Positions 11,401 through 54,838 of a DNA stretch of 60,043 bases are shown here, piece by piece. This DNA comes from a virus: positions 1 through 60,043 of the IMG/VR virus record IMGVR_UViG_3300018035_000100. One strand, given 5' to 3'. Within the stretch, counting starts at the first letter, position 1. Every line of letters begins with the position of its first letter. Made by a program: the position numbers and the translations under genes. The notes under the pieces were generated by a model. The model saw only the letters and a list, made by a program, of their open reading frames with translations. It was not told where the DNA came from and did not search any database.

Positions 11401-12434
11401 ATACAACCTCGATTTCTATAACCGGGGCTACAGGATATACATTTACTAATGGAATGATTCTGGAAATTACCGCCGATGTACTATCAATTCCAAGTTTGCA
11501 GAATACTCGTAATGGAGCAACTGTTAATTTTAGTCAACAACAAAGATCCATTTATAGTTTTACAGAATCGTTATCTTTAAGTGGAACAATTACTAATAAC
11601 AGTATAACATTTAATGCTTCAACAGGAGATTTTATTTTAGGATGTTCCTCTATAGGCACATCTTCAGGATCTTCTGCTGTATGTTTTTTAAACGATTCTA
11701 CAGCTCTTTTTGGAACCTTGGCTTATCCAATTTTAGATGGTACATCTTCTATAATTTTTAATATTAATAATTTTAATAATCAAACTGGGACGGCATCTAT
11801 ACAAGCTCTTATTCTTGAATATACTGTGCCTAGTACAATAGGAGATTCCTCTACAGGAGCTCTTATAGGCTATGATTATATACCAGTACAAACTGTTGTA
11901 TCAACCCCCAATCTGGAAATACAGACTATTACCGAGTATCCAGCAATGATTATAAGCAATAATGGTTGGGGGTCTTCTACTCAAGGAACTCCTTATATTA
12001 ATCCCATAGAACAAATTCCTATTACTTTAACGGGATATTATACAGATCAATTATTTTCTATGGATCTTATACAATTTTTAAATTATAATGTGGATAATGG
12101 TTTTATTAAGGTACCCGTTTTGATAGACGGTCAATTATATAATGTACCAATTACTTTATCTACTACTGCCATAGATTCTTTGGGGAGACAATATTTCACA
12201 TCCAGTACTCCACAAATTTCATTTATGTCTGAAGGTCTTCAACAAGAAACCTATAGAAAAATAATGGTCCCGGTCCTGGCCCGGGTCTTGGCCCCGTCTG
12301 GGCCCTTTTTGGCAGGGGAATGTGTATTGGTAGTTTTTACTTCTACTACGGCTTCTCTTGCAAATACAATAAACGGGAATGGAATAGCGGTTTATAAAAT
12401 AGCGGGGAGACCGTTAATTAGATTTACGAGATAG
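8460..12434 (+). CDS. Large virion adhesin-like protein with seven-repeat YCF48/BNR-type propeller
   Basis: A 1324-aa protein after a good ribosome site (AAGGCGG). Residues about 155-535 contain seven copies of a repeat of the type xGWAVGDSGTILKSxxGGxTW, starting TGWSCG, TGYVVG, SVWAVG, IGWAVG, YGFAVG, QAWAVG and NGFICG. This is what a seven-bladed YCF48/BNR-like beta-propeller would show, with an insertion of roughly 100 residues between repeats 5 and 6. The flanks match the 1045-aa protein at 19877-23014: IILEMWRS, TVDGYVYAIPIAFVGRRNTSPW, DVRHQV, NNLQTVL and a C-terminal AGRPL. Likely an adsorption or baseplate-peripheral protein. The propeller is absent from the paralogue, so it is a gained or lost module. 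A GC-rich cluster lies near the 3' end. Confidence 0.75.
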   Translation: MNLGNKVTVTNSDENYNYDSVIFASRKPMIDSDFNSAQEIQNIISQREISDLPSGWITSYPFYFDSDSTNGFYTQNPDGAKPEIALVNGRTLYITGTNTTIANTNFIDLGSPPTSGNAINGIILEMWRSVISYDSSANRPAPEIVLDNLNSINFLSDQSTGWSCGNNGIIIQTFDAGQNWTTQTINTSVNLNSIMFANSNTGYVVGDTGFISKTDTGGATWYDNLSNIDANLSSVFVYDVTGNPSSISVWAVGEYGTILKAQPDGVTFIPVNSNVTFTLNKVYFTSPLIGWAVGDSGTILKSVTGGNTWTQSISGVTVDLNSIYFYDENYGFAVGDSGTILRSSDGGATWINQSSNIIGGPVTQDLLDIAMFPQIYVSITNEEITSQLLNNNTTFFTQQKPIVDIYGNTVEFPSSDASSWISVVSDGTNRTILNVDGLTGLVTIAAADTTYTSTFVNYNYAPTNAVYAGQAWAVGTEGTILYTSNIGADWTQQTNSFTDINLNAVDFLSQTNGFICGSDATIIQTLDGSNWSFVPNNIQPNEIQRLYFEGNIQSNVFLNDNIINSQLNIGASQRVQVQYQIRVLPFANPDYAEAGLNSDILGLGPNSVGYYGYENMGPINGDSGCWQAVCPNTVDGYVYAIPIAFVGRRNTSPWSSQNLNGGHQPNTEYVRLDLLEATEIVESDVLDVRHQVIIPSIEEYFNVSVDQLLSNNLQTVLGTTTGPQYGIELLQVDRVDGASTDGGTLLSTSLSNLYLSPIPGSGDSTVGLFSGSSIITEPTDQTGTATLTLNGSGNGYFTFDPAHYFVYDIDSSAFMQGSFTGFGTPTVTFQFSGNIPDSSHVFSASGDFISYGLNTLTYTPSEAQLVKVYGSSASIFYKGILDTDTNNIIESWDSGVYGYTNYATIYQTEQLSSIQASRGSNVQITFYVQASSSNLINGVLTIPNTLQPNPTDSAVYTIYTPTIVYNVLSEFNHQISSIIKNTTSISITGATGYTFTNGMILEITADVLSIPSLQNTRNGATVNFSQQQRSIYSFTESLSLSGTITNNSITFNASTGDFILGCSSIGTSSGSSAVCFLNDSTALFGTLAYPILDGTSSIIFNINNFNNQTGTASIQALILEYTVPSTIGDSSTGALIGYDYIPVQTVVSTPNLEIQTITEYPAMIISNNGWGSSTQGTPYINPIEQIPITLTGYYTDQLFSMDLIQFLNYNVDNGFIKVPVLIDGQLYNVPITLSTTAIDSLGRQYFTSSTPQISFMSEGLQQETYRKIMVPVLARVLAPSGPFLAGECVLVVFTSTTASLANTINGNGIAVYKIAGRPLIRFTR
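12266..12305. repeat. GC-rich palindromic cluster A (in frame)
   Basis: Forty bases with 32 G/C in an AT-rich gene. It is built from overlapping GGTCC, CCTGG, CCCGGG, TTGGCC and GGGCCC units and is translated in frame as part of MVPVLARVLAPSGPF. The same kind of cluster occurs at 22361, 23086, 24930, 45566, 53261 and 58359. Confidence 0.7.
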
Positions 12435-12753
12435 AAGATTTTTCAAGAAGATACCAGAATCGTTCTGTTTTTACGGGCCAATGAGAATATAATATAAGAT
12501 TTTGGGGTTCAATAAATCGTTTTAAAGAAGTTCCATGAATTCGTTGTCCGACTATAGAATTTTTTGTAAAACCCAATAAATTCCTGTAGTTTTTAGAAGC
12601 TATATCTTTAGCAATGTATGGTGGATCGTTACTTGACAGATAATCCGTATCAATATATTCTGCTATCCACTCATTTTCCTCTCCTTCATAAAATACAAGT
12701 TGACCTGGTCTATAACCAGAAGCAGAAGAATATAATAATTTTTTTGTTTTCAT
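12424..12753 (-). CDS. Small dispersed-family protein with C-terminal LILYSHW motif (copy A)
   Basis: A 109-aa protein translated after DnaJ (ATGA overlap, 4 nt), converging with the end of the + strand adhesin gene (11-nt overlap). The N-terminal part, GYRPGQLVFYEGEENEW, looks like a small beta-barrel entry strand. The C-terminus NLILYSHWPVKTERFWYLLE matches copies at 35543, 40424, 46951 and 54497 and in part 49593. Function unknown. It is small, soluble, without signal peptide or obvious catalytic residues, and conserved mainly in the last 25 residues. Confidence 0.75.
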   Translation of the reverse strand: MKTKKLLYSSASGYRPGQLVFYEGEENEWIAEYIDTDYLSSNDPPYIAKDIASKNYRNLLGFTKNSIVGQRIHGTSLKRFIEPQNLILYSHWPVKTERFWYLLEKSSIS

Positions 12754-13877
12754 AAACCTTCTTCTGCCAATTTCTCTAAAAGTTCCCGAGCACTATGAGA
12801 AAGTTTTTCTGGTGTTTTTACATGAACTTGAACTAGTTGGTCTCCATAATCTTTTTGTTGTAATAGAGGGAGTCCTTTACCTTTAAGTTTTAGAACTTTT
12901 TCTGATTGTGTTCCTGCTGGAATTTTTAAACTAACTTTACCGTAAATAGTTTCTATTTCTTGAGATGCTCCCAAGGCTGCTTGAGAAAAAGTTATATCAA
13001 GTTTAGATAAAAGATCTGCTCCATGTCGTTGGAAAATAGGGTGTTGTTTTTCATTAATTATTACAATAAGATCCCCTATATCTCCACCATTAGCTCCTGC
13101 ATTTCCTTGATCTGGAATTGTTATATAATTTCCCTCAGAAATTCCTGCAGGTATAGAAACTTTTACTGTACTTTCTACAGATTCTATTCCTTCTCCGTTA
13201 CACTTAGAACAAGGATTAGAAATACTTGATCCGGTACCTCCACAAGTTGGGCATCCGTAATCCTGAATAGTTTGTCCAAAGATAGATTGGGAAACTTTTC
13301 TTACTCGTCCTTGGCCATTACAAGAAGTACATTTTTGTTTATGGCCATCTTTAGAACCGGATCCTGAACATACTGAACATCTATCTTTACGTTTTATTTT
13401 TAAAACTTTTTGGATTCCAGTGGATATTTCTTCTAAAGATAATGGTAATTTAATTTGAAGGTCACTACCCTTTACAGAATGGTTTTTAGTTCTACGTGAT
13501 CTACGACCAAAAATATTTCCGAAGGGGGATTCTCCAATATCATATTCAGTTTCTCCTTCAAAATCTTGCATAAAAGCACGGAGAGCGTCTGAAATATCGA
13601 ATCCTGCAAAACCAAAACCATTGCTGAACCCACCCGGTCCCCGTCCTTGCTGGAATGTAGATTTACCAAATTGATCATATTGAGATCTTTTTTGTGGATC
13701 CTTTAATATTTCATAAGCTTCTGTAACTTCGCGAAATTTTTCTTCTGCAATTTTATCTCCAGGATTTTTATCTGGATGAAGTTTCAAAGCTAGTTTTCGA
13801 TAAGCCGTTTTGATTTCTTCTTCAGAAGAATTTTTTTGTACACCTAAAATGTTATAATAGTCATTTGTGGTAGCCAT
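12750..13877 (-). CDS. dnaJ: Chaperone DnaJ (Hsp40, type I)
   Basis: A 375-aa full-length type I J-protein. The J domain is at residues 1-70 with HPD at 34-36. A Gly/Phe-rich linker follows (GRGPGGFSNGFGFAGF). Four CxxCxGxG zinc motifs lie at about 163-230 (CSVCSGSG, CTSCNGQG, CPTCGGTG, CSKCNGEG), then the C-terminal substrate-binding domains. It should stimulate the ATPase of a host DnaK and deliver substrates. The start sits exactly where the promoter at 13884-13912 (- strand) predicts +1, with no ribosome site upstream, so the mRNA may be leaderless. Its position between virion genes suggests a role in folding large virion proteins; no DnaK or GrpE is seen here. Confidence 0.95.
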   Translation of the reverse strand: MATTNDYYNILGVQKNSSEEEIKTAYRKLALKLHPDKNPGDKIAEEKFREVTEAYEILKDPQKRSQYDQFGKSTFQQGRGPGGFSNGFGFAGFDISDALRAFMQDFEGETEYDIGESPFGNIFGRRSRRTKNHSVKGSDLQIKLPLSLEEISTGIQKVLKIKRKDRCSVCSGSGSKDGHKQKCTSCNGQGRVRKVSQSIFGQTIQDYGCPTCGGTGSSISNPCSKCNGEGIESVESTVKVSIPAGISEGNYITIPDQGNAGANGGDIGDLIVIINEKQHPIFQRHGADLLSKLDITFSQAALGASQEIETIYGKVSLKIPAGTQSEKVLKLKGKGLPLLQQKDYGDQLVQVHVKTPEKLSHSARELLEKLAEEGL

Positions 13878-19876: not shown

Positions 19877-22800
19877 ATGCCCGATAATTTAGGTTTAAAT
19901 CAAACCCGCGTTCTAGACGACACAGACAGAAATTTTGAAGCTGTTATATCTCAAATTCGCAAACCACCCTTATCTTGTGAAGCAAACCTTCAAGATAAGA
20001 TCAATATGACACGTTTACAAAATACTGTTAGATCTATTACTACGAGTGGGTGGACTTCAGTTGGAGCTATAGTAAATAATGTCCCCGTTAGTGAATGTGC
20101 TGTTGGAGATGTTCTTTGTAGTACATTCAGTGCTAATACAATAAATTTAATTGCTACTAATAATGGGCAAGAAACTTATAAAAATACAGCTTGGGTAAAT
20201 GGTTGGGAAGTTCTTGTACAAGCTTCTTCTGCTGCGGGGGATAGCGGTGCGGTTCCCATCACTAATGCTACTTTAAATAACTATATAACCCTTACTTCTC
20301 CTTCTGCAGGAAGTCCTCCGCCTTGGGGCATAGATTTTGTTTATCTTGAAGTATGGCGCGAACTTTTAGATCCTACAGACACTGTTTATCAATATGGAAA
20401 TGTTTGTGGCCCTTCCCTTACAAATGATCTTATAGATCCTGCTCGTGGTTTTGAAACTACTTTACGTATTCAAACTCAATATAGAATTAGAGCAACTAGA
20501 ATACAGGACGTCAATATTAATGTTGATCAAGGATTTGACAACATTCCTCCTCAAGGCCCTATGAGTATTCCTGTAACAGGCTCGCGAGATAGTACGTCAC
20601 CTTGGACATATAGCAAAGATATTTCTGATCCCGGGCTTTGGAAAGCCGGTTATGGGGATACAACTTCACAGGCTATTTTAGGAACCGTAGACGGATATAT
20701 TTACGCTATTCCAATGTTTGCTGTAGCACGACGAAATTCTAGCCCCTATGTTCCTGGTACAAACTCTAATGAAGCTGGAGTAAATTTAGCAGGATATTTA
20801 GATGGAACAGCTTCAGATAGACCAGATAATCTTTATAGCGATTATATTGTAGCCCAAGATATACTTGATCTTAGACATAAAGTTTTTTATAAAGAAAGTC
20901 TTACTGAAATGTGTGCCGATGCTTTTACTAGATTAGAATATAATAATTTACAAACTGCAATGTACTATAATCAATCGGGTGAAGCTTATATGTCTGTTTA
21001 TAGAACCCAATCAGATTTTATAGGGCCTGGTAATTACACGTGGGCAAATTCACTTGGAATCGGAGATGGAATTAGAAATGTATTTTCAAATGCAGGCGAC
21101 ACACAATACTTTGCTTTAAAAGAAGTCTACCCATCTCCTACTTGGACAACAGGACAAACTGTTACTATTACACCTATTGGGGCCTCATATCCAGCAGGAA
21201 CTACTTTTGATTTTCAAGCAGCTTATTTTAATGCAACCGGAGATCAAACTAATACAATAGTTGGTGATACAACTGTTAGTGTTATATTAAACTCGATAGC
21301 TTCATCACAAGATAGTACGTCACCATTAATTTTTAATTATAATATAAATTATCCAATAGGGTCCTATGGATTATCAGAAGTACCAACAAGGTTTTTGGAA
21401 GCACGTAATATGGCAGGTAGTAGTGTTGGTTTACCAATAGCTTTTCCTGGAAATCCAATCCCTGTACGCTTAGATCCTCTCAGCCAAGGGGTAAATATTG
21501 TAGTCGATACAAGTACGGGCGATTTTACAAATATGTTACAAAATATGACCGGATCAGTTTATGATTTATATAACTTTGGTCATCAAATGATTTATAATAT
21601 AGAAGGAACAGGAAGCAATTTATTTACTATAGATAGAACATTAGGTGGATACAATATTATTGGAGTAGCAGATGTCTCATATAATGGCTCTTCGGTACCA
21701 AGCAATCTATTAACTGTATCCCGAACCCCTACAGCATATACAGTAAATACAGACAATGCTGTAGCCGATGGAACTAATGTCACCTTTACATTATATACGG
21801 GCACTAAATTCTTTGAAGTTAATAAACAAGCTAGAGCTATTACTGGTTGTTATGAAATGCTAGAAATTGTAGCAGATCAAACAGGAGGAGGTGGTAGAAC
21901 GCAGTTTACTATAGACGCCTCTAATTTTTACATTATAGCTTTAGGAGCGTATTCACAATCTGACGGAACTGCTTATGCTTATGTCACATCTGGTGGGGAT
22001 TCGTCCAGAGCAATTATTACATCTCCAAATAATACTAATCTTTTTTTAAATCCTTTAAATGTAATAGACGAAAACAGTAATCCTGATTCAACCATTACAA
22101 TAACTCTCGCATCTACTCCTGCAAGCGGATCTATTATTAGTGTACCAGTTTTAAGAACAAGTGCTGTTCAACCTTCAGAAAACTATATGTTTTTCTATGA
22201 ATATCTTCCTTATCAAGGACTAATTGGAAACGATGCTATAACAGGAAATATTGTGGCTACAGGCCCGTCCATAACCACAACTTATGGTTCAGGAGCCATA
22301 ACACCTATTATATCGGGTGGGGGTGTAGGTAGTATTAGTGGAAGCACTCTAACTCTTGATGTCCCGGGTCTGGGCCCGGGCCCGTTTTTTCCTGAACGGA
22401 TAGGGGATATTATAAATATCTATGATTACTACAATTTTAGAATTACAGAAATAATAGATTCTACATCGGTGGTAATAAATTATCCAATTCCGAATACTTT
22501 TCCGGGTGGGGATAGTTTTTCTACCTACAGCTCCACAACATATTTTGATAAATATAATATAATTGATAGATTCCCAGCAGCGAACTCAGAAAATGACCCT
22601 CTGGGCACTTCTGCGGATACTTCATCCGTGTCTGGTGTATCGGACCCTGTTATCGAGAATCGAGCCGTAGCGCGACCCCAGCCCTTTAATAGCTATACAG
22701 AACCCTTGATTGGGGTAAACTCTGCAGACCGAGGTCGTACAGGTATCATTGCTAACAATTCCCCATATGGAATAAATCCAGGTGGATTAGGAATGACCTA

Positions 22801-23014
22801 TGAATCCTTATCAACCACATCTCCATATCAAAAGACTTATCAATCCTATATTATAAATAAAAATAATTCTGGGGAATTATATATGGTTGTGGTAGGGTCA
22901 GAAGACGATAATTTAGGATCTACGTGTTATTTAAATCCATATTCCCTTGATGATGTCGTGGATTATTTTGCTCTTCCAGGTCGACCTTTACTCCCTAATG
23001 TGGATCCACAATAA
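19877..23014 (+). CDS. Large tail/baseplate protein, paralogue of the propeller adhesin
   Basis: A 1045-aa protein preceded by AAGAGGTTACAAA. It shares landmarks with the 1324-aa protein at 8460-12434: an N-terminal RxFEAVISQIRKPP versus SVIFASRKPMIDSDFN, VYLEVWRELLDP, TVDGYIYAIPMFAVARRNSSPY, LDLRHKVF, NNLQTAMYY and a C-terminal PGRPLL. It lacks the seven-repeat propeller. The two probably occupy related positions in the tail, or are alternative fibre-base proteins. Beta-rich, with no enzymatic motif. A GC-rich cluster near residue 830 encodes VPGLGPGPFF. Next gene starts with no gap. Confidence 0.7.
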   Translation: MPDNLGLNQTRVLDDTDRNFEAVISQIRKPPLSCEANLQDKINMTRLQNTVRSITTSGWTSVGAIVNNVPVSECAVGDVLCSTFSANTINLIATNNGQETYKNTAWVNGWEVLVQASSAAGDSGAVPITNATLNNYITLTSPSAGSPPPWGIDFVYLEVWRELLDPTDTVYQYGNVCGPSLTNDLIDPARGFETTLRIQTQYRIRATRIQDVNINVDQGFDNIPPQGPMSIPVTGSRDSTSPWTYSKDISDPGLWKAGYGDTTSQAILGTVDGYIYAIPMFAVARRNSSPYVPGTNSNEAGVNLAGYLDGTASDRPDNLYSDYIVAQDILDLRHKVFYKESLTEMCADAFTRLEYNNLQTAMYYNQSGEAYMSVYRTQSDFIGPGNYTWANSLGIGDGIRNVFSNAGDTQYFALKEVYPSPTWTTGQTVTITPIGASYPAGTTFDFQAAYFNATGDQTNTIVGDTTVSVILNSIASSQDSTSPLIFNYNINYPIGSYGLSEVPTRFLEARNMAGSSVGLPIAFPGNPIPVRLDPLSQGVNIVVDTSTGDFTNMLQNMTGSVYDLYNFGHQMIYNIEGTGSNLFTIDRTLGGYNIIGVADVSYNGSSVPSNLLTVSRTPTAYTVNTDNAVADGTNVTFTLYTGTKFFEVNKQARAITGCYEMLEIVADQTGGGGRTQFTIDASNFYIIALGAYSQSDGTAYAYVTSGGDSSRAIITSPNNTNLFLNPLNVIDENSNPDSTITITLASTPASGSIISVPVLRTSAVQPSENYMFFYEYLPYQGLIGNDAITGNIVATGPSITTTYGSGAITPIISGGGVGSISGSTLTLDVPGLGPGPFFPERIGDIINIYDYYNFRITEIIDSTSVVINYPIPNTFPGGDSFSTYSSTTYFDKYNIIDRFPAANSENDPLGTSADTSSVSGVSDPVIENRAVARPQPFNSYTEPLIGVNSADRGRTGIIANNSPYGINPGGLGMTYESLSTTSPYQKTYQSYIINKNNSGELYMVVVGSEDDNLGSTCYLNPYSLDDVVDYFALPGRPLLPNVDPQ
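22361..22384. repeat. GC-rich palindromic cluster B (in frame)
   Basis: Twenty-four bases with 21 G/C, made of CCCGGG, GGGTC and two GGGCCC units. It encodes VPGLGPGP in the large tail protein, inside sequence that is otherwise AT-rich. Confidence 0.7.
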
Positions 23015-23958: not shown

Positions 23959-25647
23959 ATGCCTTTTGATCAAGTTCCTTCCGTTTACCCACAATTACTT
24001 GAACTTCGAAAATCTAAAACGGCAGATTTTAAACCTAATTCATATTTAAAAGAATCTACTAAACTCCGCTACTATCAAGTGATTGGAGCTTTACATATGA
24101 TTCTTTTGAATAGGATGGTTCTCGGGGATGCTACTGGAGTAGGTAAAACGGCTATGGCTATAGGGGCCTATTCTTGGATTTTGTCTAGAGAACCAACAAT
24201 GAAATTATTGGTTGTGGCACCCAAATCTGCCCTATTTCAATGGGCAGATGAGTTTGATAAATTTACGCAAAATATTTCTGTACGAGTATTAACTTTAGAA
24301 TATGCCGGTCTATCGGGGATAGATGCTAGAAAGAAACAATATGAGGATTTTAAAGAAAATGTATTAATCGTTGGGTATGCACAAATACGTTCTGATTATA
24401 TATTTTTGAAAAAAGCTTTGGGGGCTAATTATACCGTAATCTATGATGAAGCGACGGCTTTTAAAGGACGAAAAACTCAAACTTATTTTGCTGCCCAAGA
24501 ACTAGCCCAGTCCGCGTCCCGGGTTTATGGTCTTTCCGCTACTATTATAAAAAATAGTCTTGAAGAAGTTTGGTCAATATATTCAGTTATAGTCCCCGGT
24601 CTTTTTGGGAAGATCACAAACTTTCTTCGTACCTATACACATCAGAAATTATTAAAATTAAAAATAAATGGTCAAGATCGATACATACCACAAATAGATT
24701 TGACCAAGGGTCATTTAGGGCATAAGAACCTTGAACAATTTAAAAAACTTATAGATCCTTATATATTGGTTCGTAAAAAAGAAGAAGTCGAATCCGAGCT
24801 CCCGCCGATTATATCTAAAAAAGTAATTCTAGAAATGGAACCCGATCAGAAAGCTCTTTATAAAAAAGCTGTTCAAGGAATCATTTATGAAGAAAATGTA
24901 AAACGGGACTTTTTCGAGATCTCGGACAAGGTCAGGGCCGGGACCCGGGACCCGAAGATTTTAGAAAAGTATGAGGATATGAAAGAGAAATATGAAAAAC
25001 TTTTAACTGGGGAATCTAAAAAGCATGGGAAACTTGCTGCTTTAACATATTGTCAAATGATCTCTAATGGGCCTGGGCTTATAGGAGAACCGGGTGAGTC
25101 CAGTAAAGAAATAGAATTTGAAAGATTACTAACTGAAGAACTTCTTACAGAAAAGATAATTGTATTTAGTCGTTTTAAAAGGGGGATACCTAATCTTGAA
25201 ATAATATGTGATAGAAAACATATTCAATATTCAAAAATTACAGGAGATGTTTTAGATGCTCAAGAGCGGGATAATGCTAAGAAAAAATTCTTGAATAATC
25301 CAGAATGTCGGATCATTTTTATTACTATGGCCGGGGCCGAGTCTTTAAATCTACAAGCTGCTTCTGTAGTTTTATTTTATGACACGCCGTGGTCTTATGG
25401 GGATCTTGTTCAAATTATTGGTAGAGCGCAAAGAATAGGATCGATACAAAATCATATTCTATTAATACATTTTGCTAATAAAGGAACGATTGATATGCGG
25501 GTGATCGATCGTGTAAGTGGAAAAAAAGAGTTGTCGTCAGAAATTATTGGAGATACTTCTAAAGGGGCTTTAGATTTCAGTTCTGGGGAAGAAAATGTAG
25601 TAGATGATCTGTTCAATGAACTTTTAGAGGACGGGGATAAACTTTAA
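23959..25647 (+). CDS. SNF2-family DNA helicase/translocase
   Basis: A 562-aa superfamily 2 ATPase of the SNF2 type. Motif I is GDATGVGKT (56-64, K63), motif Ia VVAPKSALFQW, motif II DEAT (163-166), motif III GLSAT. The second RecA lobe has IIVFSRFK, motif V ITMAGAESLNLQAA and motif VI QIIGRAQRIGS. SNF2 proteins translocate on double-stranded DNA; phage versions are linked to recombination and replication restart (T4 UvsW is a functional analogue but a different subfamily). Motif II is DEAT rather than the usual DEAH. A GC-rich cluster encodes KVRAGTRDPK near residue 325-334. The stop overlaps the next ATG (TAATG). Confidence 0.9.
   Translation: MPFDQVPSVYPQLLELRKSKTADFKPNSYLKESTKLRYYQVIGALHMILLNRMVLGDATGVGKTAMAIGAYSWILSREPTMKLLVVAPKSALFQWADEFDKFTQNISVRVLTLEYAGLSGIDARKKQYEDFKENVLIVGYAQIRSDYIFLKKALGANYTVIYDEATAFKGRKTQTYFAAQELAQSASRVYGLSATIIKNSLEEVWSIYSVIVPGLFGKITNFLRTYTHQKLLKLKINGQDRYIPQIDLTKGHLGHKNLEQFKKLIDPYILVRKKEEVESELPPIISKKVILEMEPDQKALYKKAVQGIIYEENVKRDFFEISDKVRAGTRDPKILEKYEDMKEKYEKLLTGESKKHGKLAALTYCQMISNGPGLIGEPGESSKEIEFERLLTEELLTEKIIVFSRFKRGIPNLEIICDRKHIQYSKITGDVLDAQERDNAKKKFLNNPECRIIFITMAGAESLNLQAASVVLFYDTPWSYGDLVQIIGRAQRIGSIQNHILLIHFANKGTIDMRVIDRVSGKKELSSEIIGDTSKGALDFSSGEENVVDDLFNELLEDGDKL
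24930..24954. repeat. GC-rich palindromic cluster D (in frame)
   Basis: Twenty-five bases made of GGTC, GGGCC, GGGACCCGGG and ACCCG, encoding VRAGTRDP between the two helicase lobes. The flanking sequence is AT-rich. Confidence 0.65.
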
Positions 25648-26836: not shown

Positions 26837-26856
26837 AATAAAGGAGAATTATTTTT

Positions 26857-39091: not shown

Positions 39092-39113
39092 TAAAAAATA
39101 ATAAAAAAACAGG

Positions 39114-39142: not shown

Positions 39143-39148
39143 TAAAAA

Positions 39149-39258: not shown

Positions 39259-39275
39259 TTTTAAAGAAATAAAAA

Positions 39276-39620: not shown

Positions 39621-39720
39621 TAAAATAATCAAAAATAATCCGGTTCCAAAAAACTGCGACTCAATCAAAAAGTAAACCGGGACATTAAGTAAAAATTCTC
39701 ATCTTCAAGGAGTTTTATCA

Positions 39721-40738: not shown

Positions 40739-40762
40739 TTTTTTATTATAAAAGTATATAAT
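40734..40762 (+). promoter_or_regulatory. Sigma70-type promoter of the MqsA-like regulator gene
   Basis: -35 TTTAAT (40734-40739), 17-nt spacer, -10 TATAAT (40757-40762), +1 near 40769. The 64-nt leader contains an 11-codon frame from ATG 40779 (MGKLNPRVKSI) that might be a leader peptide. Confidence 0.55.
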
Positions 40763-40832
40763 ATAAGGAACAATATAATGGGAAAGCTCAATCCGCGAGT
40801 AAAGTCTATTTAACATTCTAAAGTACAACTCT

Positions 40833-41318
40833 ATGAAAACAATAAACACCAGCGCATTTAAAAAAAATAAAATAATCTGTAATGTTTGTGGTTCGGATCA
40901 AGTTAATGTTGTTAAAAATCCCGTATCAATAAGCATTCCTTTGGGGGAAGACGCTGTTTATGAGCAGATTATTACTGTGTGCAAAAAATGTGGGGAAGAA
41001 ATTGATATAACAAATAAAGAGAGTCGAAATAAAGCCATTTCAACATCAGAAAAAAAATCATTAAAAGCAATTATTCAGTTTATTGTTGATCAAGGTTATT
41101 CTTTAGCAAACATTGAAAGAGTTCTTAATCTTCCTCAAGGGACAATTTCAAAATGGAAAAATGATCATAAATTGAATCCAACTGGGCTGGCATTATTAAG
41201 ATTTATTCGAATCTTTCCGTGGCTTTTATCTGTTGCGGAAAAAAATTATGATATTTCGTTTTTACAGCAAACTCTTATAAAATCTATTAATGAATGTGAA
41301 AATCACATAAAAACTTAA
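40833..41318 (+). CDS. Zinc-finger/helix-turn-helix regulator, MqsA/YgiT-like
   Basis: A 161-aa protein. Two CxxC pairs (CNVCGSD and CKKCGEE) form an N-terminal zinc finger. The C-terminal half is a helix-turn-helix (DQGYSLANIERVLNLPQGTISKWKN) followed by LALLRFIRIFPWLLSVAE, the layout of MqsA/YgiT-type antitoxins and related regulators. No MqsR-like toxin is next to it, so it is probably a phage transcription regulator rather than half of a toxin-antitoxin pair. Own promoter at 40734. DNA target unknown. Confidence 0.65.
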   Translation: MKTINTSAFKKNKIICNVCGSDQVNVVKNPVSISIPLGEDAVYEQIITVCKKCGEEIDITNKESRNKAISTSEKKSLKAIIQFIVDQGYSLANIERVLNLPQGTISKWKNDHKLNPTGLALLRFIRIFPWLLSVAEKNYDISFLQQTLIKSINECENHIKT

Positions 41319-41341
41319 AATCTTTTAGAAAGGAGCAGTAA

Positions 41342-41524
41342 ATGTCATTTCCAGACTCAGACATTATCATTAAAAAGGACGGATCAAAAGTTGAGCTAGA
41401 ATCTTTAGAACATAGTGAAAGATGTTTTAAGCTTCGGGACTTGGCCAAGAAACTTGGAAAAGTAACTGAAGACAAGGATAAGGACCATGTCCCGGCATAT
41501 CAGGAAACACACATTAACAACTAA
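41342..41524 (+). CDS. DUF2997-like small protein, first gene of the Ycf triad
   Basis: A 60-aa protein with a strong ribosome site (AAAGGAG). DIIIKKDGSKVELESLEHSERCF, then LAKKLGKVTEDKDKDHVPAY, follows the short DUF2997 layout: beta strand with dG, a central Cys, LG, and an aromatic end. It sits 30 nt before a DUF1257 gene and a Ycf46-type AAA+ gene. This grouping is what makes the assignment credible. It is encoded partly by GC-rich codons (CGGGACTTGGCCAAG). Function unknown. Confidence 0.55.
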   Translation: MSFPDSDIIIKKDGSKVELESLEHSERCFKLRDLAKKLGKVTEDKDKDHVPAYQETHINN

Positions 41525-41554
41525 TTAAAAACAATTTTTTACGGAGGCTTATTT

Positions 41555-41866
41555 ATGTCTATGAAAGCTGTAATACACACGGAAATTCGTAATATGTCGA
41601 TTTTAAAGGATACCTTAACCGAAATGGGGTATAAGTTTTCTGCTGTCGGGGCCGATGCTCTATCTATCCAAGCTGCCTATCCTATGTCGATTAATTGTGC
41701 TAAAGGTGAAATTAATTATGATTCATCTGATAAGACAGCGGTAGAAAAAATTATGGTCTCATATCAGAGAAAGTTTATTCGAGATCAAGCTATCGCTGAG
41801 GGATCACAAGTTTATGAAGAAGTCTTGGATAATGGAGATATTCATATTTCCATCCGTAACAGCTAA
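41555..41866 (+). CDS. DUF1257 (Ycf35-like) protein
   Basis: A 103-aa protein with an ACGGAGG ribosome site. The N-terminus IHTEIRNMSILKDTLTEMGY and the C-terminus VSYQRKFIRDQAIAEGSQVYEEVLDNGDIHISIRN match the DUF1257/Ycf35 pattern (I.T.I.....L...L...G, then Y....v...a...G..v......dG.i.i...). The middle is shorter than in plastid Ycf35. It lies between a DUF2997-like gene and a Ycf46-type ATPase. Function unknown in any organism to my knowledge. Confidence 0.7.
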   Translation: MSMKAVIHTEIRNMSILKDTLTEMGYKFSAVGADALSIQAAYPMSINCAKGEINYDSSDKTAVEKIMVSYQRKFIRDQAIAEGSQVYEEVLDNGDIHISIRNS

Positions 41867-41915
41867 TTTTTTAAGAGTCTTCCCCGAGTGTGCTGGGGTA
41901 TTTTCCTTTTAACGA

Positions 41916-41954
41916 AAAACACACTCTTAAAAGAAAAACTTAAGAGTGTGTTTT
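41916..41954 (+). terminator. Perfect 15-bp stem-loop terminator before the AAA+ gene
   Basis: AAAACACACTCTTAA (41916-41930) pairs perfectly with TTAAGAGTGTGTTTT (41940-41954) around a 9-nt loop. The right arm ends in four T, with TATAT after. The segments TTAAGAGT (41871-41878) and GAGTGTG (41886-41892) upstream can pair with the left arm instead, so the terminator could be switched. Confidence 0.65.
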
Positions 41955-41976
41955 ATATCCGTGATTGGAACTAAAA

Positions 41977-43560
41977 ATGCTTTCAATTAATGATTGTCTA
42001 TTAGGAAATAGACCGCTTATTTTTGTTGTGTGTGAAAATGATATAGAATTATTAAATTATTTAAACGAAAATAAAGCCCATAATTTTTTCATTTACAGTA
42101 AAACTCTTACTAATTTAGTTCCACTAGATGATCTTTTATCCACGCAATATCAACCTAAAATTGCTTCCAGAAAAACTGATATTGAAGTTCTAGACACCAT
42201 TCTTCATTGGGAATTTAAAGAAGTTAAAGCTAACGATACTTATATCTTTTTGGATTGTGATTTAAATGATAAACAAGTAATCAGAAAAATTAAAGATATA
42301 CTCGGTAGGTTTCAATTGGATACCGAATTTCTTATAAGTATGGTATTCGTGTCACAATGCATTTCCATTCCACAACCTTTAGAACGAATGGGTGAACTCG
42401 TATTTTTTGATACTACTGAAAAAGCTGCTCGAGAAAAAGTAGAGACTATAACTGCAAGAATGGATCTATCAGATGAAGAACGTCCATCAGAAGAAGTAAT
42501 AAGTAATCTTAAAGGGCTCACACTATTTGAAATAGAACAAGCTTTTACTCAAAGTTGGCAGCTTCACGGAAAGATTGATATAGATTTTATACGATCATTT
42601 AAAAAATCTGCTATTGTTAAAACTGGATTTTTAAGTCTTATAGAATCGGATGTAACATTTAATCATATAGGTGGAATGGATGTACTTAAAGAATGGATTC
42701 GAAAAAGTTCGGGTGGATGGACGGTTAAGGGACAAGAATACGGTCTCCCAAATTTAAAAGGTGTACTTTTAATAGGTTTACCTGGATGCGGAAAATCTCT
42801 TGCAGCTAAAGCTTTAGGAAATGAGTGGAAACTACCTTTAATACAATTTGACCCATCAAAAGTTTTTTCGTCTCGAGTTGGAGAAAGTGAATCTAATCTT
42901 CGCCGAGTTTTACAAATGATAGAGAATATTTCTCCTTGTATTCTTTTTATAGATGAAATTGAAAAAGGATTTGCAGGATCTCAATCCTCTTCTTTTAGTG
43001 ATGCTGGGGTTACGGCCCGGATTTTGGGTACATTCCTTACGTGGATGCAGGATTGTGTTAAACCTGTTTTTACAGTTGCCACATCAAATAATATAGCTTA
43101 TTTACCACCTGAAATGATTCAACGTTTTGACGAGAAGTTTTTTGTTAATCTTCCGTCTCCATCGGAGCAATCTGAAATTTATAATATTCAACTTAAAAAA
43201 GTTCGAAGGGATCCTGTTAAATTTGATATAGAAAAATTAGTGAAAAACAGTAAAGATTTGTCGGGTCGTGAAATCGAACAAGTTATAAAAGAATCTATGT
43301 ATGATTCTTTTTATAAAGGAAAAGAAATTGATACTGAAAATGTGTTGGAAGTTTTAAAAAAGAAGACTAATTTACTTTCTACTATGGCGGAACAATTAAA
43401 ATTTATTTTAGATTGGGTTGAGTGGGATGAAGAAAAGAAAGATGGCAAGCGAGCTCGATTTGCAAGCAAACCAGATAGCATTGAAATTTATAAAATACAA
43501 AGTGAAATTGATTCTCTTATAAAAGACATAGAAAAAAAGAAGCCGTTTTCAAGAGAATAA
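41977..43560 (+). CDS. Ycf46-type AAA+ ATPase
   Basis: A 527-aa protein. I take ATG 41977 (GGA 7 nt upstream); TTG 41965 would add MELK. The N-terminal domain, residues 1-200, starts MLSINDCLLGNRPLIFVVCENDIELLNYL, as in Ycf46, with IFLDCDLND. The AAA+ module has GLPGCGKS (about 266-274), CILFIDEIEKG (about 321-331), ATSNNIAYLPPEMIQRFD (sensor 1 and arginine finger) and SGREIEQVIKES (sensor 2 region). Ycf46-type proteins are found in cyanobacteria, plastids and large phages, with function unknown. Co-located with DUF2997 and DUF1257 genes; a switchable terminator precedes it. Confidence 0.85.
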   Translation: MLSINDCLLGNRPLIFVVCENDIELLNYLNENKAHNFFIYSKTLTNLVPLDDLLSTQYQPKIASRKTDIEVLDTILHWEFKEVKANDTYIFLDCDLNDKQVIRKIKDILGRFQLDTEFLISMVFVSQCISIPQPLERMGELVFFDTTEKAAREKVETITARMDLSDEERPSEEVISNLKGLTLFEIEQAFTQSWQLHGKIDIDFIRSFKKSAIVKTGFLSLIESDVTFNHIGGMDVLKEWIRKSSGGWTVKGQEYGLPNLKGVLLIGLPGCGKSLAAKALGNEWKLPLIQFDPSKVFSSRVGESESNLRRVLQMIENISPCILFIDEIEKGFAGSQSSSFSDAGVTARILGTFLTWMQDCVKPVFTVATSNNIAYLPPEMIQRFDEKFFVNLPSPSEQSEIYNIQLKKVRRDPVKFDIEKLVKNSKDLSGREIEQVIKESMYDSFYKGKEIDTENVLEVLKKKTNLLSTMAEQLKFILDWVEWDEEKKDGKRARFASKPDSIEIYKIQSEIDSLIKDIEKKKPFSRE

Positions 43561-45483: not shown

Positions 45484-46860
45484 ATGATTAAAATTTCAAC
45501 GTTGTTCGATTTTGACAAAGTATCTTTTGAAAAAGAAAGTGATGTCCATCTTGATGTCATTCTCAAGGCCCCGGCCCGGGACATGTCCAAGCGCATTCCA
45601 TTACACCTGATTCTTGCAATAGATTGTTCAGGTTCTATGATAGGAACTAAACTTTCTCAAGTAAAATCCACAGTTAAAAAGTTAGTAGATCATCTTACAG
45701 AAAATGATAGCTTAGGTATTATTTCTTTTGCTAGCAATGCTCAAGAAGTCACATCTACTGTTCCTATGACAGATGCGAACAAAAAATATGCAAAAGAGCA
45801 GATAGACGGAATTCAAGCATCTAGTGTAACTAATCTTAGTGAAGCTATTACTTTTGCTACTGAACGATCGATTTCAGCAGATAAATCTAAAGTATGTAGA
45901 ATAATACTTTTAACTGATGGTCAGCCCACTTGTGGAACATGTGATCGTGATAGTCTTATAAAACTTGTAGAAACCATAAACCCCTCAATTTCTATATCTA
46001 CATTTGGATATGGCTCAGATTTTGATTCAGATCTTATGTCCTCTATTTCTACAACGGGTCGAGGAAATAATTTTTATATTAAAGAAGATTTAGATTGTAA
46101 TAGTGCTTTTGCTGCAGAACTAGGGGGATTGTTATCTCTTTATGGTCAAAACATAAAAATACGGTTATCCCCCTCTTCTAATATGTCTTTTACGGAACTT
46201 TTAAGTGAGTATAAATGCGAGCAAAAAAATGGATATCGTTTAATTACTCCTTCTAAATTTGATGTTTCTATAGACGATATATTTGCTGGAGAAAGTAAAC
46301 ATATTATTATGAAATTAAAAGTTCCTAAGGCTACAGAGGCGGTGTGTGCTAGAGAAACTTCTGTTTGTAAAATTATTGTTGATTATTTAGATGTAGAAAC
46401 AAAAGTTACTCAATCTGTTTCAGCTACCGCAAAAATACAATATGTGAAAGAAGACAAGACTTCCAAAATAGCGAATAAAACTGTCCGGGAACAATTGGCA
46501 ATTATTGAGGCTATTAAAATCCAGAAAGCTGCAAAAGAAGAAGCTGAAAAGCAGAATTATACTGCGGCACAGGAAATTCTTACTAAAGGGATTGCTTGGG
46601 CAGCCAATAATATAGATCTTGGAGCTATGGCTCCTGCCTTAACAGGGACTTATTCTGCTATGTCTATAAGTTATTCCTCAGCAACTAATTATAATTTGGT
46701 AGGTTCAAAACTATCAAATTCTTTTTATCAAACAATGGCAAAAGGTAGAGCGGCTACGTCAAATGATATTGGCAGTGGGATTATTTATGAAACTTCCACA
46801 ATGCAGGAAGTAGAAAAATCTTTTAAAGATGATACATCTAAAAAGAAAAGGAATAAATAA
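45484..46860 (+). CDS. Von Willebrand factor A (VWA) domain protein
   Basis: Start at ATG 45484 with a strong ribosome site (GGAGG, 8 nt upstream); the open frame extends to 45400 but is unlikely to be used. In the 458-aa product, residues about 40-220 are a VWA domain with a complete-looking MIDAS: DCSGSM near residue 47, a Thr in SVTNLSEA, and ILLTDGQP near 143. The second half is beta-rich, then helical (KIQKAAKEEAEKQNYTAAQEIL). VWA proteins often work with AAA+ ATPases as metal-dependent adaptors; a Ycf46-type AAA+ protein is encoded 2 kb upstream. That link is inference. A GC-rich cluster encodes LKAPARDMS. Confidence 0.85.
   Translation: MIKISTLFDFDKVSFEKESDVHLDVILKAPARDMSKRIPLHLILAIDCSGSMIGTKLSQVKSTVKKLVDHLTENDSLGIISFASNAQEVTSTVPMTDANKKYAKEQIDGIQASSVTNLSEAITFATERSISADKSKVCRIILLTDGQPTCGTCDRDSLIKLVETINPSISISTFGYGSDFDSDLMSSISTTGRGNNFYIKEDLDCNSAFAAELGGLLSLYGQNIKIRLSPSSNMSFTELLSEYKCEQKNGYRLITPSKFDVSIDDIFAGESKHIIMKLKVPKATEAVCARETSVCKIIVDYLDVETKVTQSVSATAKIQYVKEDKTSKIANKTVREQLAIIEAIKIQKAAKEEAEKQNYTAAQEILTKGIAWAANNIDLGAMAPALTGTYSAMSISYSSATNYNLVGSKLSNSFYQTMAKGRAATSNDIGSGIIYETSTMQEVEKSFKDDTSKKKRNK
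45566..45588. repeat. GC-rich palindromic cluster E (in frame)
   Basis: Twenty-three bases, AGGCCCCGG, CCCGGG and ACATGTCC, encoding KAPARDMS at the start of the VWA protein. It shares AAGGCCCCGG with the clusters at 23086 and 53261, and GGCCCGGGAC with 53261. Confidence 0.65.
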
Positions 46861-46865
46861 ACCTT

Positions 46866-46934
46866 ATAAGAGTTACGAACGGTTCGCAACCGGAGCGGTG
46901 AACGAAGCATTTTTTCTACTAACCGCTCTCTTAT
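46866..46934 (+). promoter_or_regulatory. Structured intergenic element between VWA gene and copy D
   Basis: ATAAGAG (46866-46872) can pair with CTCTTAT (46928-46934), enclosing AGCGGT (46894-46899) with ACCGCT (46922-46927). A small CGAA/TTCG or GGTT/AACC hairpin lies in between. No U-run follows, so a leader, RNA-processing or pause element is more likely than a terminator. Confidence 0.45.
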
Positions 46935-46950
46935 CTTACAGGAATAAATT

Positions 46951-47181
46951 ATGAAAATTTATTTAAGTCACGATAAGAAACATATGTGTATTCGAGAAGG
47001 AGAAGAAAATCGTTGGCTTGCTCAGGAAGATATAAATAGACCCTGTGGAACCTTCAAACCTTGTACTCTTTGGGAAGAAAGAAGAAATTGTTTATATCAA
47101 GAAATTCCTCTTTCGGATCTTATTCTTTATACACATTGGAAACAGAAAGATGAAGAATTTTTTAAATTATTAGAAAAGTAA
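46951..47181 (+). CDS. Small dispersed-family protein (copy D)
   Basis: A 76-aa protein with ACAGGAA upstream. CIREGEENRWLAQEDI closely resembles the GEENEWIAEYID of copy A, and the C-terminus DLILYTHWKQKDEEFFKLLEK is the family motif. It is the shortest full copy, so it defines the core: an N-terminal GEENxW strand and the LILY(S/T)HW end. Two CxxxxxxC-spaced cysteines in the middle are not shared with other copies. Confidence 0.75.
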   Translation: MKIYLSHDKKHMCIREGEENRWLAQEDINRPCGTFKPCTLWEERRNCLYQEIPLSDLILYTHWKQKDEEFFKLLEK

Positions 47182-49592: not shown

Positions 49593-49715
49593 ATGAAATT
49601 TATTGATTTTAAAAAAGGTGATTTAATTATTTTTGAGGGTTCTATTTGTACAGAGATTTTAGAATATAATGATAGATATTCTACATATTTTGAATTATTA
49701 GAAAATAATGAATAA
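49593..49715 (+). CDS. Miniature member of the dispersed LILYSHW family (40 aa, copy F)
   Basis: ATG 49593 to TAA 49713-49715. MKFIDFKKGDLIIFEGS matches the family's N-terminal strand (GQLVFYEG, GELVLIKK, GDILLRQ), and YSTYFELLENNE matches the end of the C-terminal motif (YSHW......F..LLE). The middle 30-70 residues and the LIL segment are missing. It is either a deleted relic or a minimal functional form. It overlaps the next gene by 8 nt. Confidence 0.55.
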   Translation: MKFIDFKKGDLIIFEGSICTEILEYNDRYSTYFELLENNE

Positions 49716-50112
49716 AGATAACACAAAAAAATTGTTTGATAAATATCCTAAAATTTTTGCAGACAAACCTGGTCCAGAGTATCTAATATCCCCATGTCAA
49801 TATTATGGGATCGAGTGTGGAGATGGATGGTATAATATTATTGACGCATTGTGTTGTTCCATCCAGCATCATATCGATATTACAAAATGCCAACAAGTTA
49901 TTGTAGAACAAATAAAGGAAAAGTTTGGAGAACTTAGATTTTATATTCAAGGTGGAGACGATACTGTACGGGATTTGATATCTTTTGCAGAAATATTATC
50001 TATAAAAACTTGTGAAATATGTGGGAGCCCTGGAATAACCCGAAATAAGCAGTGGATACAAACTCTATGTAATAAATGCGAGACTTTAGAAGATGATACG
50101 TCAACAGAATAA
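49708..50112 (+). CDS. Phage hypothetical protein, GDGWY / EKFGELRFY family
   Basis: A 134-aa protein. LFDKYPKIF, GIECGDGWYNIIDALC, VIVEQIKEKFGELRFYIQGGDDTV and TCEICGSPG with LCNKC at the end form a pattern I know from many phage genomes as a conserved protein of unknown function. The C-terminal four cysteines probably bind zinc. It overlaps the helicase start by 20 nt. Confidence 0.7.
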   Translation: MNKDNTKKLFDKYPKIFADKPGPEYLISPCQYYGIECGDGWYNIIDALCCSIQHHIDITKCQQVIVEQIKEKFGELRFYIQGGDDTVRDLISFAEILSIKTCEICGSPGITRNKQWIQTLCNKCETLEDDTSTE

Positions 50113-52735
50113 TAATATCTTCAATAAAGAATTTTTCCCCCCTATTTCTAATCCCCAAGAAAAAAATTATGGATTGAATGCGGAACAGTATTCCGCTATT
50201 TTATCTAGCCCAGTAACATATATCAATGCAAGTGCCGGGTCTGGAAAAACTAGATGTCTAATTGCTAAAATTCGTCTGCTTTTAGATTCTGGTACAAAAC
50301 CAGAAAATATTTGCGCTATCACATTTACGAATAAAGCAGCTAAAGAAATACTAGATCGGCTTTCTAAATATACTGATGTCTCAGCAATGCAAATATCAAC
50401 GATACATTCAATGTGTGTGAAAATTATTAAAAAATTTTTACACCATACTTATTTAAAATCACCTTTTTCTATTTACGATGATTCGGATTCGGAATCGATA
50501 ATCAGAACCGTTATTAAAGCAATGAAAAAAGACGAGTTAACTGTAGAAGAATGCTCAAAATTTATTAGTAAATTTAAAGAAGAAGGAATAAATGCATTAC
50601 AAGAATTTAATGGAAATGAACAAATTTTTATGGAGATTCTGAATAGATATCAGAAAATTTTACAAAAAAATAATGCTTGCGATTTTGATGACCTTTTAGT
50701 TTTAGCTTTAAATTGTTTAAAACAAGATGATTGTAGATATTATTTTACACATTTATGGACATCAATACTAGTTGATGAATTTCAAGATACTAGTACATGT
50801 CAATATGATATAATTAAATTATTATATGATCCAACTATAACAAAAGATATATTTGTTGTAGGAGATTTAAATCAATGCGTGACCGAACAAACAGTTATAG
50901 AAACTGAAAACGGGATAAAACAGTTTAAAGATTTTAATGAAAAAGACTGCATGATAAGATGTGCGACGGGATCTGGAAAAAGCGGAATGGGAAATATAAC
51001 TGGACGATACCAGAAATTTGTGGAAGATTTTCCAGTTATAACTGTAACAACAAAAGAAGGATTTACTTTAACTTCCTCCTATAACCACATTTATTTTGCA
51101 GGATTTAATAAATTATCGATGACAAAATCATTTTATGTGTATCTTATATATAAAAAAGATTTAGGCTATAGAATTGGATTAACAGGAGGGATGTTTAACG
51201 ATTTTACAGTAATATTAAATCAAAATCTGGGGGATGCTCTTTGGATCTTGGGAGTATTCAAAAAAGAAAAAGAAGCTAAATATCATGAATATTTTTATTC
51301 AATAAAATATGGGATTCCAACTTGGGCTTTTCAAATTTCTTATAGAAACCTTAATACAGGATACGATGACGAAAGTATAAAAAAACTATTTTTAAATATA
51401 GATACAAGAAAAAATGCACAAAAATTATTTGATAACTTATTTTTATCTACAGAATTTCCACATTACATATCTCAAGCAAAAAAAATAAATAAAATAGAAA
51501 GCGGAAAACTCACAGAATTTTCTTTAGCAAAAATTCCTGCATCAAATCTCATAATAGGAATGAGTTGTTTTATTTATAAAAACAATACTATAGAAATGGA
51601 TACGATAGTAAGTTTAAATAAAGATTTGTATACTGGATTTTTGTATGATATAGACGTAAACCATTCTCATAATTTTATAGGAAATGGAATTGTAACTCAT
51701 AATTCCATTTATGGGTGGAGATCAGCAAAACCAGAAAACGTACAAAAATATATAAAAGAATTCGGGGCGCAAACTCATTGGCTCACCTATAATTATAGAT
51801 CCTCTCCAGAAATATGTACTCATGCTTCTAAATTTTTACAGTTTGGACCTCCAATGGTCCCAAAAATAGTTTCTCCCGGAAAAGTATCAATTACAGTTTT
51901 TGAATCTTTTGAAGACGAAGCTAGAAAGATAACTGCAAATATATTTCAAAAAGGTAAAGAATATTATTCTGAAACTGCAATTATATATCGAATGAATTCA
52001 AGATCCTTGTTTTTTGAAAGAGAATTAACAAAAGCAAACATACCCCACAAAGTTGTTAATTCTTTACCATTTTACCAGCATAAAGTTATAAAAGATCTTT
52101 TGGCAGCCCTTAAAGCCTCTAATAATATGGAGGACCGAGAGAGTTTGGCTAGAATTATTAATAGGCCAAAAAGAGGCTTTGGTGATGCTAAAAAAGAACA
52201 ACTTTTATTACATGGTCAGGATTATATAAAAGAAATAAGAAAAGATCTTCCACATATCGATAATTTTTTACATATTTTAGAAGACATAAAAGGAAAGCGC
52301 CCTGCCGACGCCATCACGGAATATTTAAATAGAACGAAATATTTAGAAATTGTCGAAACAGATGACGATCGATCTTTAATTGATTCTTTACGAAATATAA
52401 TTTTAGAATATAATAATGTTGAAGAACTATTATTAGCCAGTACATTTTTAGAAAAAGAAAAGAAAAATGGAGTAACTTTAACAACAGCTCATGGAGCAAA
52501 AGGACTGGAATGGAAAAGAACTTTTGTTACATCCCTTGATTGTTGGCCCCACCCCAACTCTCTTGACATATTAGAGGAAAATCGACTTTACTATATGGCG
52601 ATTACTAGAGCACACGATTTTGTGAACATTAGCTATTCAAAAACCAGACCCTATAGAGGAACCATTATAGAGTGCTATCCCAGTAATCTATTCAAAAAAA
52701 GCTATAAAGAAATTTATGGCAGAGATTATAATTAA
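50093..52735 (+). CDS. UvrD/Rep-type superfamily 1 DNA helicase carrying an intein
   Basis: An 880-aa precursor. Extein motifs: INASAGSGKTR (motif I, about 44-54), AITFTNKAAKEI (Ia), VDEFQDTS (II), VVGDLNQ then SIYGWRSA (III, split by the intein), LTYNYRSS (IV), VTLTTAHGAKGLEWKRTFV (V) and LYYMAITRA (VI). After removal of residues 262-537 the helicase is about 604 aa, a normal UvrD/Rep length. A 3'-5' helicase for repair, recombination or fork restart. The intein sits within the most conserved helicase loop (GDLNQ|C...N|SIYGW). Confidence 0.92.
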   Translation: MIRQQNNNIFNKEFFPPISNPQEKNYGLNAEQYSAILSSPVTYINASAGSGKTRCLIAKIRLLLDSGTKPENICAITFTNKAAKEILDRLSKYTDVSAMQISTIHSMCVKIIKKFLHHTYLKSPFSIYDDSDSESIIRTVIKAMKKDELTVEECSKFISKFKEEGINALQEFNGNEQIFMEILNRYQKILQKNNACDFDDLLVLALNCLKQDDCRYYFTHLWTSILVDEFQDTSTCQYDIIKLLYDPTITKDIFVVGDLNQCVTEQTVIETENGIKQFKDFNEKDCMIRCATGSGKSGMGNITGRYQKFVEDFPVITVTTKEGFTLTSSYNHIYFAGFNKLSMTKSFYVYLIYKKDLGYRIGLTGGMFNDFTVILNQNLGDALWILGVFKKEKEAKYHEYFYSIKYGIPTWAFQISYRNLNTGYDDESIKKLFLNIDTRKNAQKLFDNLFLSTEFPHYISQAKKINKIESGKLTEFSLAKIPASNLIIGMSCFIYKNNTIEMDTIVSLNKDLYTGFLYDIDVNHSHNFIGNGIVTHNSIYGWRSAKPENVQKYIKEFGAQTHWLTYNYRSSPEICTHASKFLQFGPPMVPKIVSPGKVSITVFESFEDEARKITANIFQKGKEYYSETAIIYRMNSRSLFFERELTKANIPHKVVNSLPFYQHKVIKDLLAALKASNNMEDRESLARIINRPKRGFGDAKKEQLLLHGQDYIKEIRKDLPHIDNFLHILEDIKGKRPADAITEYLNRTKYLEIVETDDDRSLIDSLRNIILEYNNVEELLLASTFLEKEKKNGVTLTTAHGAKGLEWKRTFVTSLDCWPHPNSLDILEENRLYYMAITRAHDFVNISYSKTRPYRGTIIECYPSNLFKKSYKEIYGRDYN
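50876..51703 (+). other. Intein in motif III of the UvrD-type helicase (276 aa)
   Basis: It starts at Cys262 (GDLNQ|CVTEQTVIETENG) and ends at Asn537 (GNGIVTHN|S), with Ser538 as the +1 residue, so all splicing residues are present. Block B-like TVTTKEGFTLTSSYNHIYF and block F-like YDIDVNHSHNFIGNG are visible. The middle has YLIYKKDLGYRIGLTGG and ALWILGVFKKEKEAKYHEYFYSIKYGIPTWAF, a domain found in some UvrD inteins that resembles a GIY-YIG-like module. No LAGLIDADG motif. Confidence 0.9.
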
Positions 52736-54450: not shown

Positions 54451-54496
54451 GTTAATTTGGTTTTTAAGGAGTCCTTTCAACTCCTGAGAGAAAAGA

Positions 54497-54838
54497 TTAT
54501 TTTGTTAAAAGTTCAAAAAATCTCTTGGATTTGTATGGATAATTACTATATAGAATTAAATCTTTAGGATTAATAATTTCTCCTTCTCGGTTTCTTGAGA
54601 TTTCGCACCATAATATGTCCCAATTCGAGTCTTCTTTAGCAATTGAGGCAATATTTAAAAAATTAAACATTAAAAATCGATCTCTTTTTCCCCGATTTTT
54701 TATTTTAAAATTATCAGGTATTTTCCATTGTGGATTTTTAGCAAAATTCACGACACTAATATCCACACATTCAACGATAACAAGCCGATCTCTGGTATGC
54801 TGTCGCAATAATATGTCGCCAATTTTAATGGGTTTCAT
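54497..54838 (-). CDS. Small dispersed-family protein (copy E)
   Basis: A 113-aa protein directly before the transglycosylase on the minus strand (start 54838; the transglycosylase stop ends at 54839). N-terminal IKIGDILLRQHTRDRLVIVE and C-terminal NPKDLILYSNYPYKSKRFFELLTK place it in the LILYSHW family. It has the longest middle part, beta-rich with a WDILWCEI strand. Function unknown. Confidence 0.75.
   Translation of the reverse strand: MKPIKIGDILLRQHTRDRLVIVECVDISVVNFAKNPQWKIPDNFKIKNRGKRDRFLMFNFLNIASIAKEDSNWDILWCEISRNREGEIINPKDLILYSNYPYKSKRFFELLTK

Follow-up and report, generated by a model that had tools for sequence, protein, structure and literature searches.

What do six small genes have in common when they are scattered over one phage genome, each close to a different set of genes? 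The question is raised by a stretch of 60,043 bases with 32.5% G+C, comprising one IMG/VR virus record (IMGVR_UViG_3300018035_000100) and referred to here as the window. In it, a preliminary description had marked out five small open reading frames (ORFs; here m1 to m5) and a miniature of 40 residues (m6) as scattered paralogs of a family without a described counterpart, characterized by a C-terminal motif around 'LILYSHW' and 'FF.LLE'. Dispersed families of small paralogs are common in large phages. We confirmed that this family is real, found it again in a second phage, and tentatively propose that it consists of small barrel-shaped binding proteins.

The evidence for homology comes from profile searches, for which the window was cut into 1569 stop-to-stop frames of at least 20 residues each. 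Profiles were built from the last 25-29 residues of four copies, with the tested copy excluded. The full copies retrieve one another, the point on which the preliminary description had made the family depend: each of m1 to m5 was recovered with E-values from 4.6e-6 to 8.2e-11 among the 1569 frames, and the best non-member stood at 0.11-0.81 over the five profiles. Members scored 51.9-63.6 bits with a profile of all five copies and 22.9-38.1 bits when left out; the top score in 20 residue-shuffled frame sets, to which only the five-copy profile was applied, was 13.5 bits. The leave-one-out profiles and the shuffles together rule out a chance motif. The C-terminal block (C-block) is present in only five ORFs among the window frames. 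A comparison of single sequences among 221 ORFs linked 7 of the 10 pairs within m1 to m5 at E ≤ 0.001 and joined the five in one group, leaving m6 without a link; beyond these, links joined only 25647-26096 to 30411-30977 and one pair of short, doubtful ORFs. The five full copies are thus homologous and have the C-block in common.

A second phage carries the same family. Scans of viral contigs with the C-block motif pattern (126 stretches, 4 confirmed) recovered the phage of the window as two fragments (3300018038_000057 and 3300018034_000032) and the second phage under two record numbers, IMGVR_UViG_3300018046_000004 (36,229 bases) and 3300039310_000236 (28,288 bases). Here, three copies lie in tandem (c1, c2, and c3; c3, of 102 residues, at L012:10368-10673), and this array is a recent duplication. 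At the DNA level, c1 and c2 agree at 95% of 78 bases in the C-block and at 93% of 68 bases in the middle, and their 24-residue C-blocks are 96% identical; c1 lacks 32 bases that are present in c2, so that its two halves lie in different frames. A C-block profile made from the second phage alone retrieved m1, m2, m5, and m4 from the window at E-values of 3e-8 to 6.9e-7, and m3 at 0.24 only, below two non-members. No other window ORF of at least 60 residues matched the whole 36-kb contig of the second phage (tblastn, E 1e-3). In total, the two phage contigs, which have no other detectable protein in common, contain eight readable genes of the family plus one broken copy. Near the array, we also noticed by eye two ORFs (L044:7158-8414 and L044:8493-9275, both on the minus strand) that resemble what we take to be TnpB-type transposon proteins.

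The second phage also clarified the standing of m6, which had been listed as a member by both ends. Its membership holds by the N-terminus and fails by the C-terminal motif. An N-terminal profile for which only c1, c2, and c3 were used placed m6 at the top of the 1569 frames (E 3e-5, 20.2 bits), with at most 9.9 bits on 20 shuffles, and a full-length profile built without m6 found it at E 0.014, the next frame following at 2.1. The C-block profile, in contrast, ranked three non-members ahead of m6 (E 1.5). The miniature consists of the N-terminal block, which it shares with the second phage, and of what by eye looks like the very end of the C-terminal helix, a few residues long; it lacks the middle as well as the LILYSHW part.

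The C-block also tells something about the age of the copies. Over its 24 residues, identities range from 38 to 54% among the window copies and from 29 to 58% between these and the copies of the second phage. As they are as distant from each other as from the copies of the other phage, the window copies are old duplicates or separate acquisitions rather than recent ones. Recent copying or gene conversion inside the window is likewise unsupported, with only 33-51 of 72 bases identical between window copies in a 72-base block. The gene amplification suggested by the preliminary description is therefore seen directly in the second phage, where the tandem copies are recent, and not in the window. 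Where two copies have the same residue in the C-block, their codons differ in 38 of 106 cases among the five window copies and in 107 of 230 cases pooled over seven copies (M and W excluded). This divergence of codons with residues kept argues that the copies are in use.

With regard to known families, neither the libraries nor the literature searched seem to describe this one, which together with the profile retrieval and the shuffles bears out the earlier claim of a family without a described relative. A hmmscan of the eight members (m1 to m6, c2, and c3) at a threshold of E 0.001 gave no match, the best values being 0.0021 in Pfam, 0.0031 in NCBIfam, and 0.017 in PHROGs. By sequence, the best matches in the PDB were to unrelated proteins (E 1.2 with the profile and 0.29 with c3). 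A tblastn search of annotated phages with m1, m2, m5, c2, and c3 as the queries gave no match for m1 and only matches at E ≥ 4 for the others (for c3 among 20 of 22 matches listed). Three matches of c3 were taken as chance: one in Vibrio nt-1 on the strand opposite the annotated genes, one within a long gene of Stenotrophomonas, and one within a 257-codon gene of Klebsiella (E 9). Plasmids, searched with c2, gave a single match at E 8. Three distant phages from the viral contig scans (L015, L035, and L036) had no copy at E-values up to 10, with one of the searches of L035 and L036 including a positive control and one not. In GTDB genomes, two motif scans gave 8 and 35 pattern stretches and no relative; these scans used a strict motif, so that diverged members would escape them. 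In the open PubMed Central library, no paper was found on the motif or on such small paralogous or SH3-like phage proteins; two papers listed there for KOW domains are about transcription elongation.

What, then, might these proteins be? Over seven copies, only four columns of the C-block are invariant (L, Y, L, and L), and nothing in them looks catalytic. As the invariant residues are hydrophobic or aromatic, binding of protein or nucleic acid is most likely the function, and not catalysis, so that the family looks like a binding module rather than an enzyme. Clues to its fold come from two sides. First, residues 7-55 of c3 align with positions 4-51 of the 58-position Pfam profile of the EF-P KOW-like domain (PF08207, EFP_N; E 0.0021, 18.5 bits), and one member matches the NCBIfam family efp (E 0.0031). 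Second, we generated AlphaFold2 models of one copy per phage, c2 and m5, from seven-row alignments. Both models have a hairpin at the N-terminus, a strand right ahead of the motif, and a helix at the C-terminus. Among the 50 rows listed in a structure comparison of the m5 model, 25 are titled Tudor, PWWP, chromodomain, or SH3 (Z 2.7-4.1; several rows represent the same protein), and the top PWWP row covers model residues 4-113 with Z 4.1, a root mean square deviation of 5.6, and 81 aligned residues. This resemblance and the KOW-like match of c3 point, as a best guess only, to an SH3-like barrel. Such a predicted barrel would accommodate the earlier suggestion of a small module for binding that carries a variable insert.

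Taking these points together, our tentative preference, which we put at somewhat less than an even chance, is that these are small binding proteins of an undescribed family, each built as an SH3/KOW-like barrel and ending in a conserved helix, and that the second phage has amplified them recently. The first hairpin would come from the N-terminal block, 'KKGDLIIY...EILEC', and the other strands together with the loops from the variable middle. The C-block of about 24 residues would follow a strand, complete the fold at 'KDLILY', either with a last strand or with a helical turn, and end in the amphipathic helix 'FF.LLE'. The common C-terminal part could then serve as structural core, as docking face for one shared partner, or as both, and the variable part would give each copy a target of its own. 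Standing directly behind genes of different modules, the copies would probably be made by translational coupling with each operon, and the family would grow by tandem duplication, with copies that decay or shrink. The middle parts had been described as differing in length and sequence. Both do vary; the middles are not wholly unrelated, as an I/L-A pair is aligned in most copies, an observation from the alignment without a separate test.

Several observations weigh against a barrel that is shared in this way. The match of c3 to the EF-P domain lies under the Pfam gathering cut-off (18.5 versus 23 bits), and the other seven of the eight members have no such match. Confidence in the models is low (mean pLDDT, the predicted local distance difference test, 65.1 for c2 and 58.3 for m5), and neither contains a 'DLILY' strand: in c2, a helix at residues 77-83 runs from 'KDL' through 'ILY', and in m5, a three-residue helical turn at 91-93 lies at 'KDL', with 'DLILY' then unassigned. 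The middles of the models disagree, being a helix in c2 and a hairpin in m5, both predicted with low confidence. For the c2 model, the fold comparison was uninformative, with 1 of 161 chains at Z ≥ 2, and Foldseek returned no row at E ≤ 0.001 for either model, the best being 0.86 (c2) and 0.61 (m5) in the PDB and 0.026 (m5) in BFVD. The N-terminal block is a further weak point, as the profile from the second phage that found m6 separates none of m1 to m5 from background: m3 stood at 0.2, m2 at 0.9, and m5 at 1, m1 and m4 were unlisted up to E 5, and a non-member reached 0.0073. For the full window copies, this block is consequently read from the alignment alone. As a side aspect, an ankyrin-repeat protein of a Solivirus heads the BFVD rows of the m5 model (E 0.026, probability 0.93), with three more Solivirus proteins among the 50 rows listed.

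The close packing of the copies behind upstream genes is directly visible. In our own gene list, the gap to the upstream gene is zero or less for 5 of the 6 family genes versus 19 of 55 others (Fisher p 0.031). For the translational coupling that we infer, this statistic is weak support, since the gene list was made by ourselves, the case of m4 depends on an uncertain ORF of 41 residues, and phage genes are tightly packed in any case.

The same features can be read differently. If only the core of the fold were conserved, the copies would be functionally unrelated, and the motif would merely be a requirement of folding. Hydrophobic or aromatic residues at the invariant positions and the differing operons of the copies are what this explanation would predict. 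Yet a mean column identity of 58-59% in the C-block is high for pure upkeep of a fold given how variable the remainder is, and m6 seems by eye to retain the end of the helix without the LILYSHW part, so that we consider this reading rather unlikely. Still less probable, in our judgment, is an arms race, in which the genes would serve counter-defence or host takeover as inhibitors of host factors, with tandem copies selected for dosage and then diverging to new targets. In one published study of phage counter-defence, the amplified gene was reportedly tifA. The second phage, with its recent tandem array in which one copy is broken, would suit this reading. It also has published precedent, as amplification of phage counter-defence genes is documented in two reports (PMC13096335 and PMC9391042). 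Against it, the copies of the window are spread out next to core genes (dnaJ, primase/polA, and thyX) and not gathered in one accessory cluster, and no host or defence system was identified, with PADLOC not searched. Finally, a selfish or hitchhiking cassette, that is, small ORFs that land at stop codons and are expressed through the overlap without a role for the phage, is improbable: it would account for the 5 of 6 copies that abut or overlap the upstream gene, for the occurrence in two phages without another detectable common protein, for the miniature and the broken copy, and for nearby genes of mobile type (a probable homing endonuclease at 56658-57398 and the two TnpB-like ORFs, identified by eye, about 2.5 kb from the array), but no nuclease or recombinase was seen directly beside any window copy, no conserved DNA was seen by eye in the 45 bases on each side or among the direct repeat families listed, 20 of 44, and the codon-level divergence with kept residues speaks for use.

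A bolder reading would see in the C-block a shared docking tag by which otherwise different small proteins are brought to a single hub of the infected cell, for example, a replication or transcription complex. The copies would then be interchangeable adaptors multiplied by tandem duplication, and m6 would be the minimal docking unit. We regard this reading as improbable. If it were true, the phage would control the products of several operons through one adaptor family. In any case, with some copies old and dispersed, others in a recent tandem array, one of them broken, and a miniature besides, this single family offers a compact case for studying why phages multiply small accessory proteins beside unrelated operons.

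All six small ORFs were found where the preliminary description had placed them, with m1 and m5 on the minus strand; the full copies have 76-113 residues and end 2-6 residues past the LL of the C-block. The E-values given here for full copies are those of the leave-one-out profiles. The start of m1 (12424-12753, 109 residues, E 8.2e-11; C-block 12427-12513) overlaps the dnaJ stop by 4 bases, and its 3' end overlaps the convergent gene 8460-12434. On the plus strand, m2 (35543-35875, 110 residues, E 3.1e-10; C-block 35786-35872) starts 4 bases within the primase gene and ends 3 bases ahead of the gene of DNA polymerase A. The most diverged full member, m3 (40424-40738, plus strand, 104 residues, E 4.6e-6; C-block 40649-40735), shares an 11-base overlap with the end of a sigma-like gene. 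The shortest one, m4 (46951-47181, plus strand, 76 residues, E 6.8e-8; C-block 47104-47178), overlaps by 4 bases the ORF of 41 residues at 46829-46954, which is uncertain as a gene and lies downstream of the VWA gene. Without a gap, m5 (54497-54838, 113 residues, E 5.3e-10; C-block 54500-54574) adjoins the gene of an SLT transglycosylase. The miniature m6 (49593-49715, plus strand, N-terminal block E 3e-5) begins 24 bases downstream of thyX. Pfam backs the neighbours that had been named, namely DnaJ, SLT transglycosylase, primase zinc ribbon, DNA polymerase A, VWA, and ThyX; for the sigma neighbour, there is a match only barely over the cut-off (24.3 versus 24.0 bits).

Judged by its gene matches, the window is a fragment of a tailed phage, with tail tape-measure, endolysin, and baseplate-wedge matches, and, besides the neighbours just named, SNF2 and UvrD helicases, radical SAM proteins, and RtcB. 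Two high-GC phage contigs (L035 and L036) keep the window's gene order of SNF2, DnaB-like helicase, primase, PolA, and AAA (23959-43560, plus strand), with PolA identities of 34% and 33% to the window. Some further features of the window deserve mention. The ORFs 25647-26096 and 30411-30977, both on the plus strand, are a second paralogous pair (phmmer E 3.4e-7). The long proteins of 8460-12434 and 19877-23014 (plus strand) have in common a stretch of about 190 residues with about 31% identity, as found via the near-identical contig L014. The UvrD-like helicase gene (50093-52735, plus strand) has, between its two helicase parts, the N-terminal and the C-terminal one, an intein-splicing match at residues 268-537 (PF14890, 34.1 bits, slightly below the cut-off of 35.8). 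Direct repeats of 61 bases at 39100-39160 and 39578-39638, 80% identical and with the core TTGACTTTTTTTGTGGC...TATATT, lie on either side of the ORF 39276-39500 and have the appearance of a repeated promoter. The probable homing endonuclease (56658-57398, plus strand), with NUMOD3 and I-TevI zinc-finger matches, stands beside RtcB.

Among known systems, the N-terminal KOW-like domain of EF-P (PF08207) resembles the family through the alignment of c3 over residues 7-55. It differs in that the copies, with 76-113 residues, have no room for domains II and III of EF-P, and no further domain was found in them; they carry instead an additional conserved C-terminal block. The small beta-barrels of Tudor and PWWP domains show a weak structural resemblance to the m5 model, with Z values too low for a common fold and no sequence match, and the respective rows are mainly eukaryotic histone readers. 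With the phage genes amplified under selection (PMC9391042 and PMC13096335), the family shares the tandem arrangement of a small gene, which here occurs in the second phage, whereas the window copies are old and dispersed.

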